A stretch of 64,000 nucleotides of DNA from Escallonia rubra (Eukaryota; Streptophyta; Magnoliopsida; Escalloniales; Escalloniaceae), in contig JAVXUO010001548.1 in assembly GCA_033065855.1 (NCBI GenBank), forward strand, positions 496,001 through 560,000, in the 5' to 3' direction. Positions 1,495 to 61,648 of the stretch are shown piece after piece. Made by a program: the position numbers and the translations under genes. A model generated the notes under the pieces. It was not told the origin of the DNA, ran no database searches, and saw nothing but the letters and a program-made list of their open reading frames with translations. The number at the start of each line of letters is the position of its first letter. The stretch's first letter is position 1.

Positions 1495-4400
1495 CAGTGT
1501 TGTTAAATGCGCAGGCGCACCTAAGGCGCAAGAGGTCCCTGGAGCCTAGGCGCGAGGCGTAAGGCGCAGGCGCGCGCCTTTCGAAGCGAGGTGCAATATT
1601 AAAAAAAAAAAAATAATAAAAATAATAATACACAAAAACAATAAATTATGTAAAAAAAATAACATGACAATTAACAAACTTTCAAACACTAAAAAAAGTT
1701 TCAAATTCCATCGCATCATAATCTAACAAGTTTCCAACATAAGATAAGTCTTAAATCCAGTAAAAATAACAAATCACCAAACACTAAGTGAACATAACAC
1801 CAACATCCTCATCATCGCTAAGGGCCAAGGCAACAACATTTTCTTCAAATGGAATCATAGGCTCCAAGTCCGGTAGAGATTCCTCCTCGACTTCGTCTTC
1901 TTCATCGACCACGTGAGCTGAAGGAGTAGATCTACTTGATGTGGCAGCCCCATCTGATGACGACCTTACACTTCTTGCTGTTGACCTCGAATGGTAGTTC
2001 GGCTCCATGCCACCTAAAGGGTCACTTTGAAACACGTCACCGTCTTCGTCTGCATCTTCATCCGGCCTCCCAAGCAACCATTCATTACTTTCATCGATAT
2101 TATCCAATAAAATAGGATCAATTGTGTCACGTGAATTGTATCGTCGCTTTAACGCTCTATTGTATTTCACAAACACCAAATCATTCAAGCGACTTTGTTC
2201 AAGCCTATTCCTTTTTTTGCTATGAAGCTGTAAAGTACAATACACAAATTGATTACTAGTCATTGAGTATGAAATAAATACGAATTTTAGCATAAAACTT
2301 TACTAATAGATTATAACTTGTTGGACTCACATGCTAAAAAACGCTCCAGTTACGTTCACAGCCAGAAGCACTACAAGTGAGACTCAAAACCTTTATTGCA
2401 AACTTTTGCAAGTGAGGCGTTGATGATCCGTACGAAGCCCACCATTCCGCTGTTCAATAAATAAAAATTGCAAAACTAATAAGTGAAGTAACTATTCATT
2501 AATTTATACGTTAGAATGAGCACTATAAAACAAAAACAAAAATTAGTACCTGGCGCTTTTCTATCTCTCATCCTCTTTGACATGGAATTCCCAAATAGAC
2601 CATTCGCTCTCTTATACTTACTCAATTCAGTGTCAATTGCATCTTGTACTGCCATATCAGGGTTCAACCTTTGAATGCAATCATACAAACCCGTCATAAC
2701 TGTTTCATCACTCTCAATGTCTGGGGTAGAGTAATAGTACTCCGGGTTCAAGAAATAACCAGCTGCATGCAAAGGACGATGGAGTTGAACACTCCATCTA
2801 CTATCAATGATCTCATAAACCTCCTTGTACTTCAATTCGTTCCTTTGAAAAGCACTTGTAATAGCATCTTTAGCTTTATCCATAGCCTTGTAAATGTATC
2901 TCATTAGAGGTTTTTTCTCACCATCAACCAATCTAAGTATCGGAATAAGAGGGCATGCTACCTTTAAAGTATATACAACATTGTTCCAAAACGAAGGCAT
3001 TAATACTATTTTTTTTTTTTTTTTTCCTTGTAGTTCCTTTGACCATTTGTTATTGGCCCACTCTTCCGATGTAAACATTTTTTTCAAGTTATTTTGCTCT
3101 TCATGAATCATTGACAAAGTGATAGTGGCAGTTGCAAATCTCATTTTGTCAGGCCTAAGCAACTCTCTTCTTGCAAATTTCCTTAACAAGTTTACCACAC
3201 CCGAGCGATTATATATGTAACCGTTCAAAACAAGAGCCTTTTGAAATGTTGACTTCATCTTAGGTAACTTAAATATGTCCTCTAAAATCAAGTCAATGCA
3301 ATGCGCAGCACATGGTGTCCAAAACAAGTGTGGAAAATCACGCTCCAATAACTTGCCTATCATATAAAATTGCAAAAAATAAATTAATAAAATAAATATC
3401 AGACTATCTAGTATCTAATAATATTGTACATTTGTTAAAAGTTAAGTTACTTTATCTATACTATGTGTAAAGATTTAATAACTTGCCTTTTTGTTGTTTG
3501 AGTCACTGTCAGTGACAACTTTAACCGCATTCTTCGGCCCCACCCTTTCGTTAGTCTTCTTAATCAAATAATCCATCTAGTATCCGGTCTTTGAATGTTC
3601 GGAAGCATCAACAGATTCAAGAAACAAACTTCCTTTAGGACTATTCGCTAAAAAATTAATCAAATTCCTTTCTCTATTGACCTTCCAACCATCGCACATA
3701 ATCGAACAACCGGTTTTCTCCCATTCTTCTTCATGATCCTTCATCAGTTTACGCGTATTATCCACCTCTTTCTGTAGTAGGGTAACCCTAATCTCATGAT
3801 AACTTGGTGGCTTCAAACCCGGACCATACTGCCCAATAGCTTCAACCATAGCTGAAAAGCTGTCAGAGTTCACGGCATTGAATGCAATCCCCACATCATA
3901 AAAAAATCTTGCTATTGCACTACAAGCCCGTTTTCTCATCTCCTTTTTTGCTTCTTCATTTTCAAACACCGTGGATTGCTTCATCTTTCTCTTTCTCACT
4001 ACCTCTTCTGGATCCGGGGTGAAGTACACGTCCATTGGACCCTTAGCCTTAGGATTCTTACGAGAAGATTGACAGGAACTCCCAGTTGATGAAACTCTTT
4101 TTTTCTCAATATCACAACTACATCGTCGTCCTCGTCCTCGTCTTCCTCATCATTGAAAACATTATCAAAACCAGGGATGCACTTAGCTAGTTCTTTCTTT
4201 TCTTTGATAGACTTTAGCACTTCTTTCATCTCATCTTTAACATGTTCTGGACACTCTCGGCACGTTGAAGCATTCCTATAACCTCCAGCAAGATGTTGCT
4301 TATGTCGATAAATACCGCCCTTAGTAATTTTATTACAAAAATTACAAGTGACTGCATTTTTGTCGCTTGGATTAGAGATACGTCCATATTTCCAAGCTGG

Positions 4401-19818: not shown

Positions 19819-21828
19819 TAGGGATGGCAATGGGGCGGGTCGGATGCGGATCTTATGAAATCCGTACCCGCCCCGGTGGTCCTAAAACCTTGCCCCGCCC
19901 CGCCCCGTCACCGGGTCATCTATGTGCAATACCATAACCGACCCTAAGTTTGTTTAGAAAACCCGTCCCCGCCCCGATCCGCCCCGGCCGTCCTTGTAAC
20001 ACGCCAACCCCGTAATAACCCGCCCCGACCCGCTTGGTTTTCCATATTTTTTTTTCACTTTAAACATGTAATACAAAACTGCATCACAAAAAATAAAATA
20101 CACAAACATCAAATTAATGTCCGAAAATCATAAAAGACATATTAATAGATTACATCATAGTTCAAATCAAATGTTCAAATAGATTACACCACATTTACGA
20201 AATAGTTTAACGACAATACAAACGCAGCAAAGCAATCCCTGGGTACTCAATTAAGCTCCCCTTCACCAAGTCCTTGCAAGTGTCGCTAGATGTAGTGGTG
20301 ACAATGTTTTGATGCCTGTGTAAAACCATAATTGCAAAGGGAGAGTAAGGCAGCCTGAGGATGAACAAAAAAGACAGATACTTAGCTAACACAAAATTGC
20401 AATAATTGGTTGCATCAAAAAGCATTTTTTGATTAAAAAAAGCATTTGCGACTACATAAAGTATGCTTCTAATTCAGTCGATTGCAACTCCAAATTATGG
20501 TAAGTATCTCATGAAATCACGACTGTGATTATATCTATAGTATTGGCATTGAACTTTTCCTAGGCAGGTGCATTCAAGCACTTGCTCAAGTGCAAAAATC
20601 ATGCATGTCCTAATATTGAACTTTGAGAGCAAGTATAAAAATCCCAAGGGTAAAGACTAGATCATCAACCACAACTTAAAATAAGCATCAAACTGAAGAA
20701 TCCTGAGATTAAGTAGCAGTAGAAGTAAAAACCTAAAATTAAAGACATGTCTTAACCTAACTTTTCCCTGTTGAGGATGGTTTCCCTTGCAAAAGTTCAG
20801 CAAATATACAAACTAACAAACCACATGTCAAGCTAATGAAGATTATCTGAACCTGAAAGTTTACTGTAAAAATAAAATCTTTGAAGTCTGATAAGCTAAT
20901 TTATTCATGATAGTTTTGTGCATAAAAAACAGCTAATTTACAATTCAATCACAAAACCAAAAAGAAGAAGAAGAAGAAGAAGATATAAAACAGTGACTCA
21001 AAAGCTAATTGCTAATTCATGATTGAATTAAAACTGTGAAACACATACCAAATAGAGCAATCACAATCATCATGTCCTTCTCTTGATCTACCGATTTACA
21101 ACAATAAACAAGAAAACATAGCAAGATTTGGAATCATCATAGACTTGAATACCATAAATCATGGAAATTGGAATGAATCCAATCAAGCTGTTGCAGTAAT
21201 TTCTCATCACAAGAATTCAGTTTACAAAGAGAACATACTAAAAAGGTTGGCAGTAGAAAAGTAGATGAGCTAATTAACCTGGATGTAGGGGAGGTGGTGG
21301 TGACAATTGATGGTTGACGGTGGATGCCGATCAACTCTAGACTCCAGTCCGTGGTATGGTGATGACGGTGGAGGTGGACTGACCATGCGGTGATGGTTAC
21401 GATCTTCGGCCGAGGTGGAGGTGGATGGGTTTGGTTATGTTGGGTGGTGGTGGTGGTGGTGGTGGTGGTGTGGTGGTGGTGGTGGTGGGTGGTCGTCGGT
21501 TAGGTGGCCGTGATGTTTTCGGGGGAGAGGGAAAGAAGATCGGAAGAAGGGAGGCGGTCTTTGGTAGGTCGGCAAGACTGAGTAAAGACATAACAGTTTA
21601 GGGTTTTAGATGAAAGCTATATATATGCTTAAATGAATGGCTAGGATTTATTAATGCTTAGGGTTAACATACCGGGGCGGGTGCGGGTCGGATACCGGGG
21701 CGGGCTGGGAAGAATACCATACCCGACCCTAATCCGCTGCGAATTTTTAAAAAAATTACCATACCCGTCCCGTAACCTGGTCAAAGTCAAAATAACCCGT
21801 TCCTAACGGGGCGGGGCGCACACACGTG
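19819..21828. mobile_element. hAT-type element with one truncated terminus
   Basis: The left end TAGGGATGGCAATGGGGCGG is the same terminus as in the complete element at 59771. The right end stops at AACGGGGCGGGGCG, about 45 bp short of the expected mirror terminus. The flanks CACACACA (19811-19818) and CACACACG (21829-21836) are compatible with an 8-bp TSD but lie in CA repeats. A promoter-like stretch and a short minus-strand ORF (21591-21397, MSLLSLADLPKTASL, then proline-rich) sit at the right. No transposase domain is present. A GGT-repeat block is at 21445-21490. Confidence 0.7.

Positions 21829-37360: not shown

Positions 37361-37408
<48 letters not shown>
37361..37408. repeat. (TA)n microsatellite, left flank of the palindrome-bearing element
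   Basis: About 24 TA units abut the element start at 37409, preceded by GGGTGTGCCAAAAAAAA. Confidence 0.95.
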
Positions 37409-37410
<2 letters not shown>

Positions 37411-37518
37411 GCGCTGATCCGTTGATAGCGTTAGCAAAATAGGATAAGTTGCAAACGCGATCTGGCCGTCCATCCCGAAAGATGGACGGCCCAGCTCTTT
37501 TTCGTTTTTTTTAAGTCC

Positions 37519-37704
37519 GTCCGCTACATTATGTAGCGGATAATTTTTTGACAAAAATACCCTTTGTGCCCATCTGCTACATTATGTAGCGGACTATCGA
37601 GACTACTGTTCTGACTTTTTTTTAAATCTGTCAGCTACATTATGTCGCGTACAATTTTCTTATTATAATATCCTCAATTTCCATCCGCTACATTATGTAG
37701 CGGA
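37519..37704. repeat. Palindromic repeat cluster, four copies (left arm)
   Basis: The unit is GTCCGCTACATTATGT then AGCGGAC, self-complementary except for its central base. Copies start at 37519, 37573, 37630 (degenerate) and 37683. Confidence 0.9.
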
Positions 37705-37815
37705 CGTATTTTTTCTCTTTCTCTTTCTTTTCCTCATTTAATGTTCTGACGGTTTCCTTTCTCTCTCCTCTCTCTCATCATTTTTTCTCTTTCTCTCTCT
37801 CCTTTCTCTAATTAA

Positions 37816-37849
<34 letters not shown>

Positions 37850-37914
37850 TGTAGATCATTGTTTTGATCGAGCGGCAACCGATTTCTACTCTTTCCTCAT
37901 CTTAATTTTGACAA

Positions 37915-38275
37915 ACGTGGGCAAGATTTCCAGATCAGCATATAATCGTAATTCAGAGCTTCAGCAGTTTGTGCCGCACTGAAGTTCTTCAGAAGGGTAT
38001 AAGTTCCAGCCGCCACAAAATACACAGCATCAGACGCATGCAGTCTAGCGTAAGAAGCTGGGTAAAAGTACAGACGGACAAACTTGCGTCCAGACCAAAG
38101 CAAACTTTGACCCAATATCCGTGGTCCATTTCCGACCATCAGTATTGGTAGAATCCCCAGAACCCCCAGAGTCCAAGAAAATCTTATTAGTGGCAACAAA
38201 GTCAGCAGCCGAACTTAACCCAATCACAAAAGCCAACAACAAAAACGACGACGACGCCGAACTTAACCCCTTCAC
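37915..38275 (-). pseudogene. Captured FERONIA/CrRLK1L-type malectin receptor fragment
   Basis: On the minus strand the first part reads a signal-peptide-like SSFLLLAFVIGLSSAADFVA, then TNKIFLDSGG and NTDGRKWTTDIGSKF, the start of the malectin-like ectodomain of plant CrRLK1L receptor kinases. In another frame it resumes as SGRKFVRLYFYPASYARLHA, SDAVYFVAAGTYTLLKNFSA and AQTAEALNYDYM, a block that in this family lies about 50-60 residues further on. So a middle piece is deleted with a frame change. No ATG, transmembrane or kinase region is present. It lies inside the long-TIR element and is non-functional as a receptor. Confidence 0.78.
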
Positions 38276-38733
38276 CGTAGTGGGAGTACCGGAGCATTAT
38301 GGAGAGAGAGAGAAGTTAAGCCGGCAGATCTGGAGGATCAGCCTTCTGCCACGAGCTCTTCTCTGACGGCAATGGCGGCATCCTCGTCGCGGCCGACGAG
38401 CTCCTCTGACTGCAATGGCGCCATCCTCGTCTCGAGCGCGGAGCTGCACATGAAGCAGGCGCGTGGCGGGGGCGCGTCTTCGTGGGTGCGTTGGTTATGG
38501 TGGTCGGAGCTCGGGGAAGAGGCGAACGCATCTACTGCAGCGACGCCGGAGTAGAGCTCGGCCGTGATGTGGGCTGTTGTCATTACTGCAAGGAGGATGG
38601 ACAGGGGAGAGAGAGAGAGGAGAAGAAGAAGAAGAAGGGAGGGAGATGAGAGAGAAAGAGTCAGACATTAATGAGAGAGAGAGAGAACAATTAAACATGT
38701 CAGGAGAGAGGAGAGAGAAAGGGTCAGAAAATT

Positions 38734-38907
38734 GTCCGCTACATTATGTAGCGGACAATTAATCAGACAAAAGAGAGAGAAATGGTCAGAAAATTAATCA
38801 GAGAAAGGGTCAGAAAAAAAGTACGGGCTTTGTCCGCTACATAATGTAGCGGATGGGCACAAAGGGTATTTTTGTCAAAAAATTGTCCGCTACATAATGT
38901 AGCGGAC
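38734..38907. repeat. Palindromic repeat cluster, three copies (right arm)
   Basis: Copies at 38734-38756, 38832-38853 and 38885-38907. The last two carry ATAATG at the centre, i.e. the opposite orientation of the asymmetric middle base. Confidence 0.9.
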
Positions 38908-39019
38908 GGACTTAAAAAAAACACAAAAAAAAAGATCTGGGCCGTCCATCTTTCGGGATGGACGGCCAGATCGCGCTAGCAACTTCTCATATTTTGCTAA
39001 CGCTCTCAACGGATCAGCT

Positions 39020-39021
<2 letters not shown>

Positions 39022-39065
<44 letters not shown>

Positions 39066-44529: not shown

Positions 44530-45120
44530 TCAAGGATGAACACCAGCATCCATCTCAGCTGTTGTTGCAACATTCAAATCTATAGCTCCAGCATAGTTTG
44601 TCGAAGAAAGTGGTGCTGAAATAGAACCCCCGGCCAAGCACCTCGCAACCTGCATATCTACTACCTTCTTCTGAAGTCCTTCCCAAAGCACCTGCAATTT
44701 CATCAGCTGATCTAGGTTGAGCTCCTCAATTGGTGCATCAAACCAGAACTTCCTCTGTCTCTCCATTTGCATCTGCTTCAGCTCCTCGCCTCGTTTTTCC
44801 TCTGCTTCCAGTTGGTCACGGAGATAATTTAAGCGCTGGTTGAGGGCAGACAGATTAGCCCCATGCGAATCCTGGTTGTCATAATGGGGCATTGGGTATC
44901 GGTTAGAGAACCTGTTTGTTATTGTGTCAACACTAGGGTGGCCAAAAGAGAAGGCCTTTCCACCAGGTGAGAACAGAATTATAGCAACTTCTGCACCAGT
45001 TAAAGTACAAAGCTCACTGGCCTTCTTGAACAGGCTAGCACGGCGCTTTGAGAAGGAAGCCTGGCGAGCATTTTTTGTTGAAAACCTCTTCATTTGGATA
45101 TTTTTGCGACGAATGCTCAC
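44530..45120 (-). CDS. Type I (M-alpha, AGL62-like) MADS-box transcription factor, start codon damaged
   Basis: An intronless frame of ~197 codons encoding a nuclear DNA-binding protein. The MADS domain covers about residues 1-60 (RRKNIQMKRFSTKNARQASF, SKRRASLFKKASELCTLTGA, EVAIILFSPGGKAFSFGHPS), typical of the AGL62/AGL29 group that acts in endosperm and gametophyte. A coiled-coil-like C-terminal region follows (LNQRLNYLRDQLEAEEKRGE). The given coordinates open with GTG. The upstream codons in the same frame are ATG AAG TGA (45129-45121), so the presumed original start is cut by a stop at codon 3. The next in-frame ATG is at 45093-45091 and would drop the basic N-terminal arm. It is either a recent pseudogene or starts at Met10. 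A poly(A) signal candidate lies at 44292-44297. Confidence 0.8.
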   Translation of the reverse strand: MSIRRKNIQMKRFSTKNARQASFSKRRASLFKKASELCTLTGAEVAIILFSPGGKAFSFGHPSVDTITNRFSNRYPMPHYDNQDSHGANLSALNQRLNYLRDQLEAEEKRGEELKQMQMERQRKFWFDAPIEELNLDQLMKLQVLWEGLQKKVVDMQVARCLAGGSISAPLSSTNYAGAIDLNVATTAEMDAGVHP

Positions 45121-60702: not shown

Positions 60703-61347
60703 TCGTGACATAATGAATAAATGTCATTAAAATATATTTTAACCATAAAAATTATCATTATAAATTTTAACAACATCGATGATACTTTTTGTTACAATCT
60801 CTTATCACTTAAACTTTTACAACAGAGATTATCAGAATTTTATCAGTTTATTATTAGTTTAGGTAAAAAAAAAAAAAAGAACCGTAAGAATATAGTTATT
60901 GACAGGATTCCAAGAAAATTAGACTACTGTGGAGAGTTAGACAGGAAATGACGTGATGTTTCAATATTATCTTTTGGACTTAGCTAATCTTTTGTCGGCG
61001 GCAATTTGTGAATTTCAATCGCGCCACGGACAATTTTTTTGTGATGCGTTAGGTGTTTGCGTTAAACATATGCTCTATTTTGGGAACGGGGGATTAGAAA
61101 TTGTAATCCTAACTCTAAATACATTTTTGGACCCATGAAACGAAAAATAAAAATTTGAAGATGTTTAAAATTAATGAAGGTACTAATTTCTATGTAGTAG
61201 TCCGAGGATAGTTTACGCAAGATTTGCTTGTATACAACTCTAAAGCATTATAGTGAGATTCACAATGAAGTGAGATGCACTTAACATCAATCTTAAGCAA
61301 CCAAAACTACGGTTAGCAAAGATTTATGATGAGATAAATATTAGAAG
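60703..61347. other. Intergenic, nothing recognised
   Basis: AT-rich, no features supported. Confidence 0.5.
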
Positions 61348-61648
61348 GGAGCTGATAAAATGACAGCCATGTCAACTTAGTTAAGTTGTCAGCGATGACC
61401 TGGCCATCGATGTTGTCGACGTGGACGGCCCAAAAATCTGCAATGTTTTTAAGTGAACTTCGTAGCCGTCCCATTATGGAGAGGACGGTAATTCACCGTC
61501 TATATAGACGTCCGTCCCATAATATGACAGACGACAAAAAAATTTTTTAAAACAAAAGTAGTCTGGCCGATCCATCTGTGATGGATAGACGGTCAGATTG
61601 CACTAATAACTTAGTTTAAATTGCCAATGCGGACGATAGGTCAGCTCC
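61348..61648. mobile_element. Small MITE related to the 37.4 kb long-TIR element
   Basis: The ends GGAGCTGATAAAATGACAG and (reverse complement) GGAGCTGACCTATCGTCC resemble the GGAGCTGATCCGTTGAGAG terminus at 39021. The inner arm GCAATCTGACCGTCTATCC parallels GCGATCTGGCCGTCCATCC. Length is 301 bp, with strong fold-back and no TSD resolved. Confidence 0.6.

Follow-up and report, generated by a model that had tools for sequence, protein, structure and literature searches.

A 23-bp palindrome that recurs in one transposable element of Escallonia rubra is the conserved dyad of a large, recently active Mutator-like family that targets TA microsatellites, and it stands both in the terminal arms of these elements and in internal arrays of their largest members. 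Comparison of the sequences leads us to propose, with moderate confidence, that the palindrome is a dyad at which a protein encoded by the element, most likely its transposase, binds as a dimer, and that this site is needed in cis. The window analyzed here is the whole 64,000-nt stretch in which the element lies; its features are given below with a strand where one applies.

37361 to 37408: (AT)24 microsatellite, left flank
37409 to 39021: whole non-autonomous Mutator-like element, 1,613 bp, from GGGCGCTGATCC at 37409 to GGATCAGCTCC at 39021
37409 to 37425, forward strand: left terminus, family consensus GGGAGCTGATCCGTTGA
37428 to 37458, forward strand: left hairpin segment H1, imperfect in this element
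37459 to 37497, forward strand: left hairpin segment H2, with its core at 37464-37491, GGCCGTCCATC-CCGAAA-GATGGACGGCC
37519 to 37541: palindrome copy 1
37572 to 37594: palindrome copy 2
37630 to 37652: palindrome copy 3, 3 mismatches
37683 to 37705: palindrome copy 4
37936 to 38088, reverse strand: FERONIA-like ectodomain fragment (E 1.2e-14 against a solved FERONIA chain, PDB sequence search)
38093 to 38242, reverse strand: second FERONIA-like piece, N-terminal part, in another frame (E 5e-05)
38734 to 38756: palindrome copy 5, exact
38832 to 38854: palindrome copy 6
38885 to 38907: palindrome copy 7, exact
38934 to 38972, reverse strand: right hairpin segment H2
38973 to 39003, reverse strand: right hairpin segment H1
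39006 to 39021, reverse strand: right terminus, its CCC lacking the third C
39022 to 39061: (AT)20 microsatellite, right flank

The arms of the window element are inverted repeats, 89-96% complementary over two stretches, and besides the palindromes each contains two hairpin-forming segments, H1 and H2; an earlier sequence-only reading of this DNA had mentioned neither these segments nor the flanking (AT)24 and (AT)20. The element itself codes for no transposase. Pack-MULEs are non-autonomous MULEs that carry a fragment of a cellular gene, and the FERONIA-like pieces, for which a Pfam search gave no match, would make the window element one of them; it resembles Pack-MULEs in this captured fragment and differs in its preference for (TA)n targets. 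Elsewhere in the window, positions 61347-61648 hold what appears to be an older, diverged relative of the family (~302 bp, GGGAGCTGATAAAATGACAGC...GGTCAGCTCC) outside any (TA) run, with degenerate palindrome-like pieces near 61468 and 61514, the pattern for which is not above chance in the window. The same stretch includes two open frames on the reverse strand at 2476-4035 that match DUF659 (3.3e-25 and 6.2e-12) and that we take to be hAT-like transposase remnants, a reverse-strand MADS-box protein frame of 196 aa at 44530-45120 (SRF-TF 1.7e-21), and a snoZ199 C/D-box snoRNA match on the reverse strand at 21132-21217 (48.9 bits), the only Rfam match in the window at the gathering score.

The seven copies of GTCCGCTACATWATGTAGCGGAC reported by the sequence-only reading were all recovered in the window at up to 3 mismatches, where none is expected by chance (100 shuffles); six of the seven reported starts are exact, and 37573 should read 37572. 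Two copies have no mismatch to the consensus (38734 and 38885), three have one, one has two, and the copy at 37630 has three. Perfect self-complementarity except at the central base, as originally described, is a property of the consensus and not of every copy, with uninterrupted pairing outward from the center running from 4 pairs (37630) up to 15 pairs (38734). The four sites of the left arm are spaced by 53, 58 and 53 and the three of the right arm by 98 and 53, and the phrase said to separate copies in both arms is indeed common to them, the right arm carrying AAAGGGTATTTTTGTCA and the left arm its inverted form. Conservation judged from the window alone is mixed. Within the left arm, two 90-nt units differ at 5 of 46 palindrome positions versus 13 of 44 others (Fisher p 0.035); the outer arm common to both sides is identical at 44 of 46 positions in palindromes, 103 of 111 in the rest and 28 of 28 in the H2 core, showing no difference; and the fourth left and first right palindromes are alike at 21 of 23 positions, with 60-bp flanks that align no better than shuffles. 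Relatives of the element were therefore needed.

The palindrome is far from confined to this one copy; such confinement would have told against the earlier reading. The host assembly (566 Mb, 3,222 contigs) holds 3,131 exact palindromes, the reversed control giving 0, and 1,316 exact element ends GGGAGCTGATCCGTTGANAGCG (652 + 664; control 0), and the motif can be assigned to a single large Mutator-like family, in agreement with its first description as a family-specific site in a TIR element. We read 19 stretches at the first listed palindromes, 20 at listed ends and 6 at three large elements. Elements of ~0.9-2.3 kb with the same ends, the two further hairpin segments and several palindromes lie in (TA)n and frequently follow one another in series; their interiors vary, with some shared pieces, and one element of ~1.49 kb is present at two places at 99% identity. 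The terminal inverted repeats are long, as expected of MULEs, with best arm matches of 126-447 bp in 14 elements. TA repeats flank both sides in 20 of 29 element rows, counted by hand; in the nine remaining rows, L013, L016, L047 and L052 at least pair a true end with a wrong one, and in L010, L019, L022, L033 and L045 the TA repeats are one-sided or partial. An exact 9-bp target site duplication (TSD), TATGTATAT, is present at L034, and where an element has GGG and CCC ends and is flanked on each side by pure (TA)n, an odd TSD length fits in 11 of 11 cases, a count from which L021 was dropped (its pair spans two elements) and in which the C1 row, with its right end placed one base short, was not used. 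The rows against this are L038, which fits an even length better, L015 (8/9), L044 (7/9) and L033, which gives no fit. Even TSD lengths fit the rows whose GGG or CCC end is incomplete (the window element, C77, L006, L019 and L023), and loss of an end base could be the cause. On balance, the relatives have the TSD of 8-11 bp, usually 9 bp, expected of such a family, the TSD of the window element itself being unreadable.

Alignment of arms shows that the palindrome changes more slowly than its surroundings, where the sequence-only reading had named equal or faster change as the observation that would undo it. The search found 83 arms, 74 after removal of near-duplicates, and 67 were kept; the seven dropped by hand include three ends of ~220-bp elements, and a few poor rows remain (e.g., L008:1466). 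Over these 67 arms mean column identity is 0.955 in the terminus and 0.952 in the outer 6+6 bp of the first palindrome, compared with 0.669 in the T-rich spacer before the site and 0.715 in the spacer after it. The stems of H1 and H2 have values of 0.884 and 0.900, and the core of the palindrome taken alone is only moderately conserved (0.791). A count over 37 sequences, the window stretch plus 36 sampled loci but not the loci of the large copies, places 229 of 236 palindromic sites no farther than 1 kb from the end of an element. The spacing of neighboring sites peaks at 53-55 and 58 bp. The distance from terminus to palindrome is 112-115 bp in 49 of 67 arms, and in many short elements the palindrome stands ~28-50 bp from at least one end; this variability argues against a core site for end binding whose position is fixed.

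Short elements act as natural deletions. A search for two ends with 50-80 bases between them, in which the palindrome was not required, gave 32 rows at 29 places with matched spans of 74-101 bp, and a palindrome (at least 9 of 11 pairs) is kept in 26 of the 29 and lacking in 3, as judged from printed letters only, at most 80 for each. The longer class, with 170-200 bases between the ends, gave 46 + 55 matches, in many cases a single place matched on both strands. Of 13 stretches that were fetched, 12 from the longer class without a palindrome in the printed letters and one short exception (C1633), nine contain the palindrome, two have remnants and two have none, so that 4 of 13 lack it, L062 among them; C1633 is in this count and in the 3 of 29. 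The site is usually, not always, kept in short elements, and since several of these are copies of few ancestors the retention counts overstate independence.

A candidate autonomous element of ~11.4 kb, with family ends, lies between (TA) runs at C77:103798-115236. It contains an open transposase frame of 776 codons (L050/L053; first methionine at residue 12) with FAR1 (PF03101, 2.3e-13), MULE (PF10551, 2.9e-32) and SWIM (3.8e-4) domains, and thereby the MULE transposase of an autonomous partner; a search of solved structures found no relative of the whole transposase. On the opposite strand are frames that match PMD (2.1e-50 and 7.9e-17) and an Ulp1-type Peptidase_C48 (3.7e-05). Of 4,774 candidate transposase copies the best 58 were scored; they are 97-100% identical and 52 are free of stops, which points to recent spread. 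Two more large copies are C1 and C25, the latter read without its right end and with one stop in its frame; the main aligned blocks of C77 and C25 agree at 92-97%. Their palindrome cores are mostly of CATAC, TATAC and TATAT types, as opposed to the TACAT type of the window element, and neither is therefore counted as its exact partner. A forward-strand frame of 144 aa at L053 6775-7206 (C77:109574-110005), present in C77 and C25 between two palindrome arrays, gave no Pfam match and is possibly a further element gene.

In these large copies palindromes occupy the terminal arms (the right arm was read in C77 only) and also intergenic arrays. The first array, directly after the transposase gene, has 4 copies in C77 and 7 in C25, ~56 bp apart; the second likewise has 4 and 7, ~78 bp apart, and a pair of palindromes stands farther on from the first. 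The array spacers, ~33 bp and ~55 bp, together with that of the arms make three kinds. A fourth context, the pair after the first array, was rejected, its spacer being an inverted relative of that of the second array (0 of 300 shuffles). Comparisons among the three kinds are near shuffles, except for a few that score above most of them (2, 7 and 12 of 300), in T- and A-rich sequence; they suggest no clear relation, and the part plainly in common is the 23 bp. A further candidate, inside or beside the transposase frame (C77:106911, C25:128030, C1:13418), was dropped as a site and is not a palindrome. Tandem duplication is clearly how the arrays grow.

The arrays raise an alternative in which the PMD/Ulp1 product or the protein of the middle frame binds motif arrays in non-coding DNA and lifts silencing by the host in the manner of VANC proteins. 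Such an anti-silencing site is a less likely explanation, yet one to be taken seriously. It would account for arrays located in intergenic and terminal non-coding DNA, for their differing copy number (4 versus 7 in each), and for a motif that spreads as tandem repeats with array-specific spacers, behavior like that of VANC21 motifs in the portions of PMC5735166 and PMC10398659 available to us; the subfamily-specific cores would likewise parallel the differing motifs of VANC21 and VANC6. However, single palindromes are kept in elements of ~100 bp, whereas motif density matters for VANC21 (PMC5735166, in part), a paper in which the word palindrome is absent. VANDALs have degenerate TIRs according to the available part of PMC10398659, and the Escallonia family has long ones. 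Moreover, DUF1985 reaches an E value of only 0.042, below its cut-off, in the accessory ORFs of C77. From the sequence evidence we would rank binding by the transposase first and a VANC-like role of the arrays second.

The dyad symmetry of the site is maintained where its core has changed. Two-sided changes in the pairs of H1, H2 and the palindrome amount to 102 cells, compared with a shuffle mean of 44.7 reached in 0 of 500 trials and with 5-11 cells in slid controls; the number of pairs with a two-sided change (14 versus 10.7 in shuffles, 12 of 500 reaching it) and of further pair types (45 versus 41.9, 36 of 500) are unremarkable. Among 296 sites, pre-filtered for 8 of 11 pairs in a way that favors the excess, core half-sites of the same kind (TACAT, TACAC, CATAC and so on) face each other in 161, against 88 expected by random pairing, and the TATAC half-core is partnered chiefly by TATAT. 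The central base in these 296 is T in 153, A in 142 and G in 1. When sites were instead chosen by their outer bases (158), the 75 non-consensus cores have a symmetry of 0.765 versus a shuffle mean of 0.671 and maximum of 0.728 (2,000 shuffles). On a tree of arms built without the palindrome the homotypic cores require just 3 changes. In sum, the core symmetry is real and the independent change events are few. Two small elements bear on the extent of the dyad: in L068 (121-161), a ~240-bp relative, it is lengthened to a perfect 41-bp palindrome, TTTTTCGTC-(23 bp)-GACGAAAAA, and L062 has the flanks of L068 with exactly the 23 bp absent.

These compensating changes would also be expected if an extruded DNA hairpin or cruciform of the foldback type were the active form rather than a duplex bound in a sequence-specific manner. 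In keeping with this, folding of the arm at 37410-37705 is much better than that of shuffled sequence (z -10.7), and arms composed of hairpin chains recall the foldback structure of MuTAnT (PMC4486113, available in part). Nevertheless, the near invariance of the outer 6+6 letters and of the W center goes beyond what pairing alone asks, and the other two arm hairpin segments are somewhat less completely paired (87% and 92% of cells) than the palindrome helix (93.9%), so that we regard a cruciform site as improbable. The hairpin proposed at the outset finds no support as a strand-specific RNA form, G-T and A-C mismatches being almost equally common (24 versus 25, no strand bias), and none was found for a recombination site. 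A mutational by-product without function, in which template switching or gene conversion perfects quasi-palindromes and few source elements are amplified, could draw on the small number of independent core changes that the arm tree requires and the evident tandem expansion of arrays, but is very unlikely given outer letters conserved like the terminus next to spacers that are not, a site that most of the shortest elements examined still carry, and its recurrence among different spacers.

The mechanism that fits best is a duplex dyad recognized by a dimer, because the outer half-sites are invariant, the center is W, there is no G-T bias, and the distance to the end is tolerated. We infer that the 23-bp site, GTCCGC-core-W-core'-GCGGAC with its dyad on an A.T pair, acts in cis as double-stranded DNA, and that its two inverted half-sites are recognized by a protein that the autonomous element encodes, most likely by a dimer of the FAR1-domain transposase; the earlier suggestion of an operator-like protein-binding site is likewise best understood as a probable one, drawn from conservation and dyad symmetry. 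In the arms the site would help to build the transposition complex as an accessory or enhancer element whose distance to the cut is not fixed, and would in this capacity be required for transposition. In the intergenic arrays of the large element it may regulate the genes or chromatin of the element. A GCGG-type core is the target of GCM proteins. According to the part of PMC6000157 available to us, the FAR1 domain is one of the WRKY-GCM1 zinc fingers, and CACGCGC is the sequence recognized by FHY3/FAR1. Against the proposed reading, CACGCGC is absent from the palindrome consensus; it occurs in 13 of 67 arms, by eye in H2. More speculatively, one dyad could perform two tasks, as a transposition enhancer in the arms and as an array operator that keeps the element unsilenced through the FAR1 transposase or the PMD-Ulp1 product, a combination that we consider rather unlikely. 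If it were true, protein and palindrome core would co-evolve by subfamily, and the family would have a VANC-like system built on the FAR1/PMD pair instead of VANC.

Several known systems share parts of this organization, as far as the available portions of the cited sources describe them. MuTAnT/AutoMuTAnT of Medicago truncatula (PMC4486113) is similarly Mutator-like, with (TA)n insertion, a 9-bp TSD where readable, long modular foldback TIRs, and small non-autonomous copies beside an element with a Jittery-like transposase. Its TIR mask GGGGTTTGCTAGAACA, compared by eye, differs from GGGAGCTGATCCGTTGA, which sets the present family apart from MuTAnT proper; the accessible part reports no repeated 23-bp palindrome, and AutoMuTAnT has a single ORF whereas the large element here adds PMD and Ulp1 domains. 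SaTar of guayule and rice (PMC5907723) and the Ac-mMITEs of pineapple (PMC8449440) likewise target microsatellites and form clusters joined there, as do Micron and TAFT (as cited in PMC5907723, PMC8449440 and PMC4486113) in their targeting. TSDs outside microsatellites are 9 or 10 bp in pineapple (PMC8449440) and 10 bp in guayule (PMC5907723); the authors of the pineapple study found no autonomous partner (PMC8449440, in its available part), and neither PMC5907723 nor PMC8449440 mentions a palindromic internal site, the string 'palindrom' being absent from both. VANDAL21/VANC (PMC5735166, PMC10398659) is comparable in its family-specific motif arrays in non-coding Mutator-like DNA, which evolve by array expansion and between subfamilies. 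The VANDAL21 motif is, however, the 9-base YAGTATTAY in same-orientation arrays, as opposed to a 23-bp dyad that is also found in long TIRs and very short elements, and VANDAL elements have degenerate or absent TIRs where those here are long and well matched. Muta1 of Aedes aegypti (PMC5225508) has TIRs made of an imperfect terminal palindrome and repeated subterminal units, and non-autonomous copies with common TIRs and diverse internal DNA; it differs in its 12-bp subterminal repeats, 10-bp terminal palindrome and animal host, and (TA)n targeting is not mentioned in the portion of the paper available.

Each ingredient is known already, from Mutator-like elements that target TA and arms of the foldback type to captured fragments of genes and arrays of motifs. 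What appears to be new is a family with a new arrangement, in which a conserved dyad is used in arms and internal arrays. The exact motif is found in 0 viral contigs and in 0 genome contigs outside the host, and the open-licence literature gave no palindromic site of such elements with this sequence and nothing relevant for the letters of the motif or arm. A phage-like IMG/VR contig (L001) with a single CCGCTACATTATGTAGCGG palindrome at 1531-1549, a 19-base core match, was dropped as chance or terminator-like.

To our knowledge, how Mutator-like transposases recognize their ends is poorly known, and the FAR1/FHY3 light-signaling factors descend from such transposases. Thousands of conserved dyads, dozens of near-identical open transposase genes and one-site elements of ~100 bp make this family a compact test system, suited to asking which DNA the FAR1 domain recognizes and whether an element is protected from silencing by arrays of its sites.
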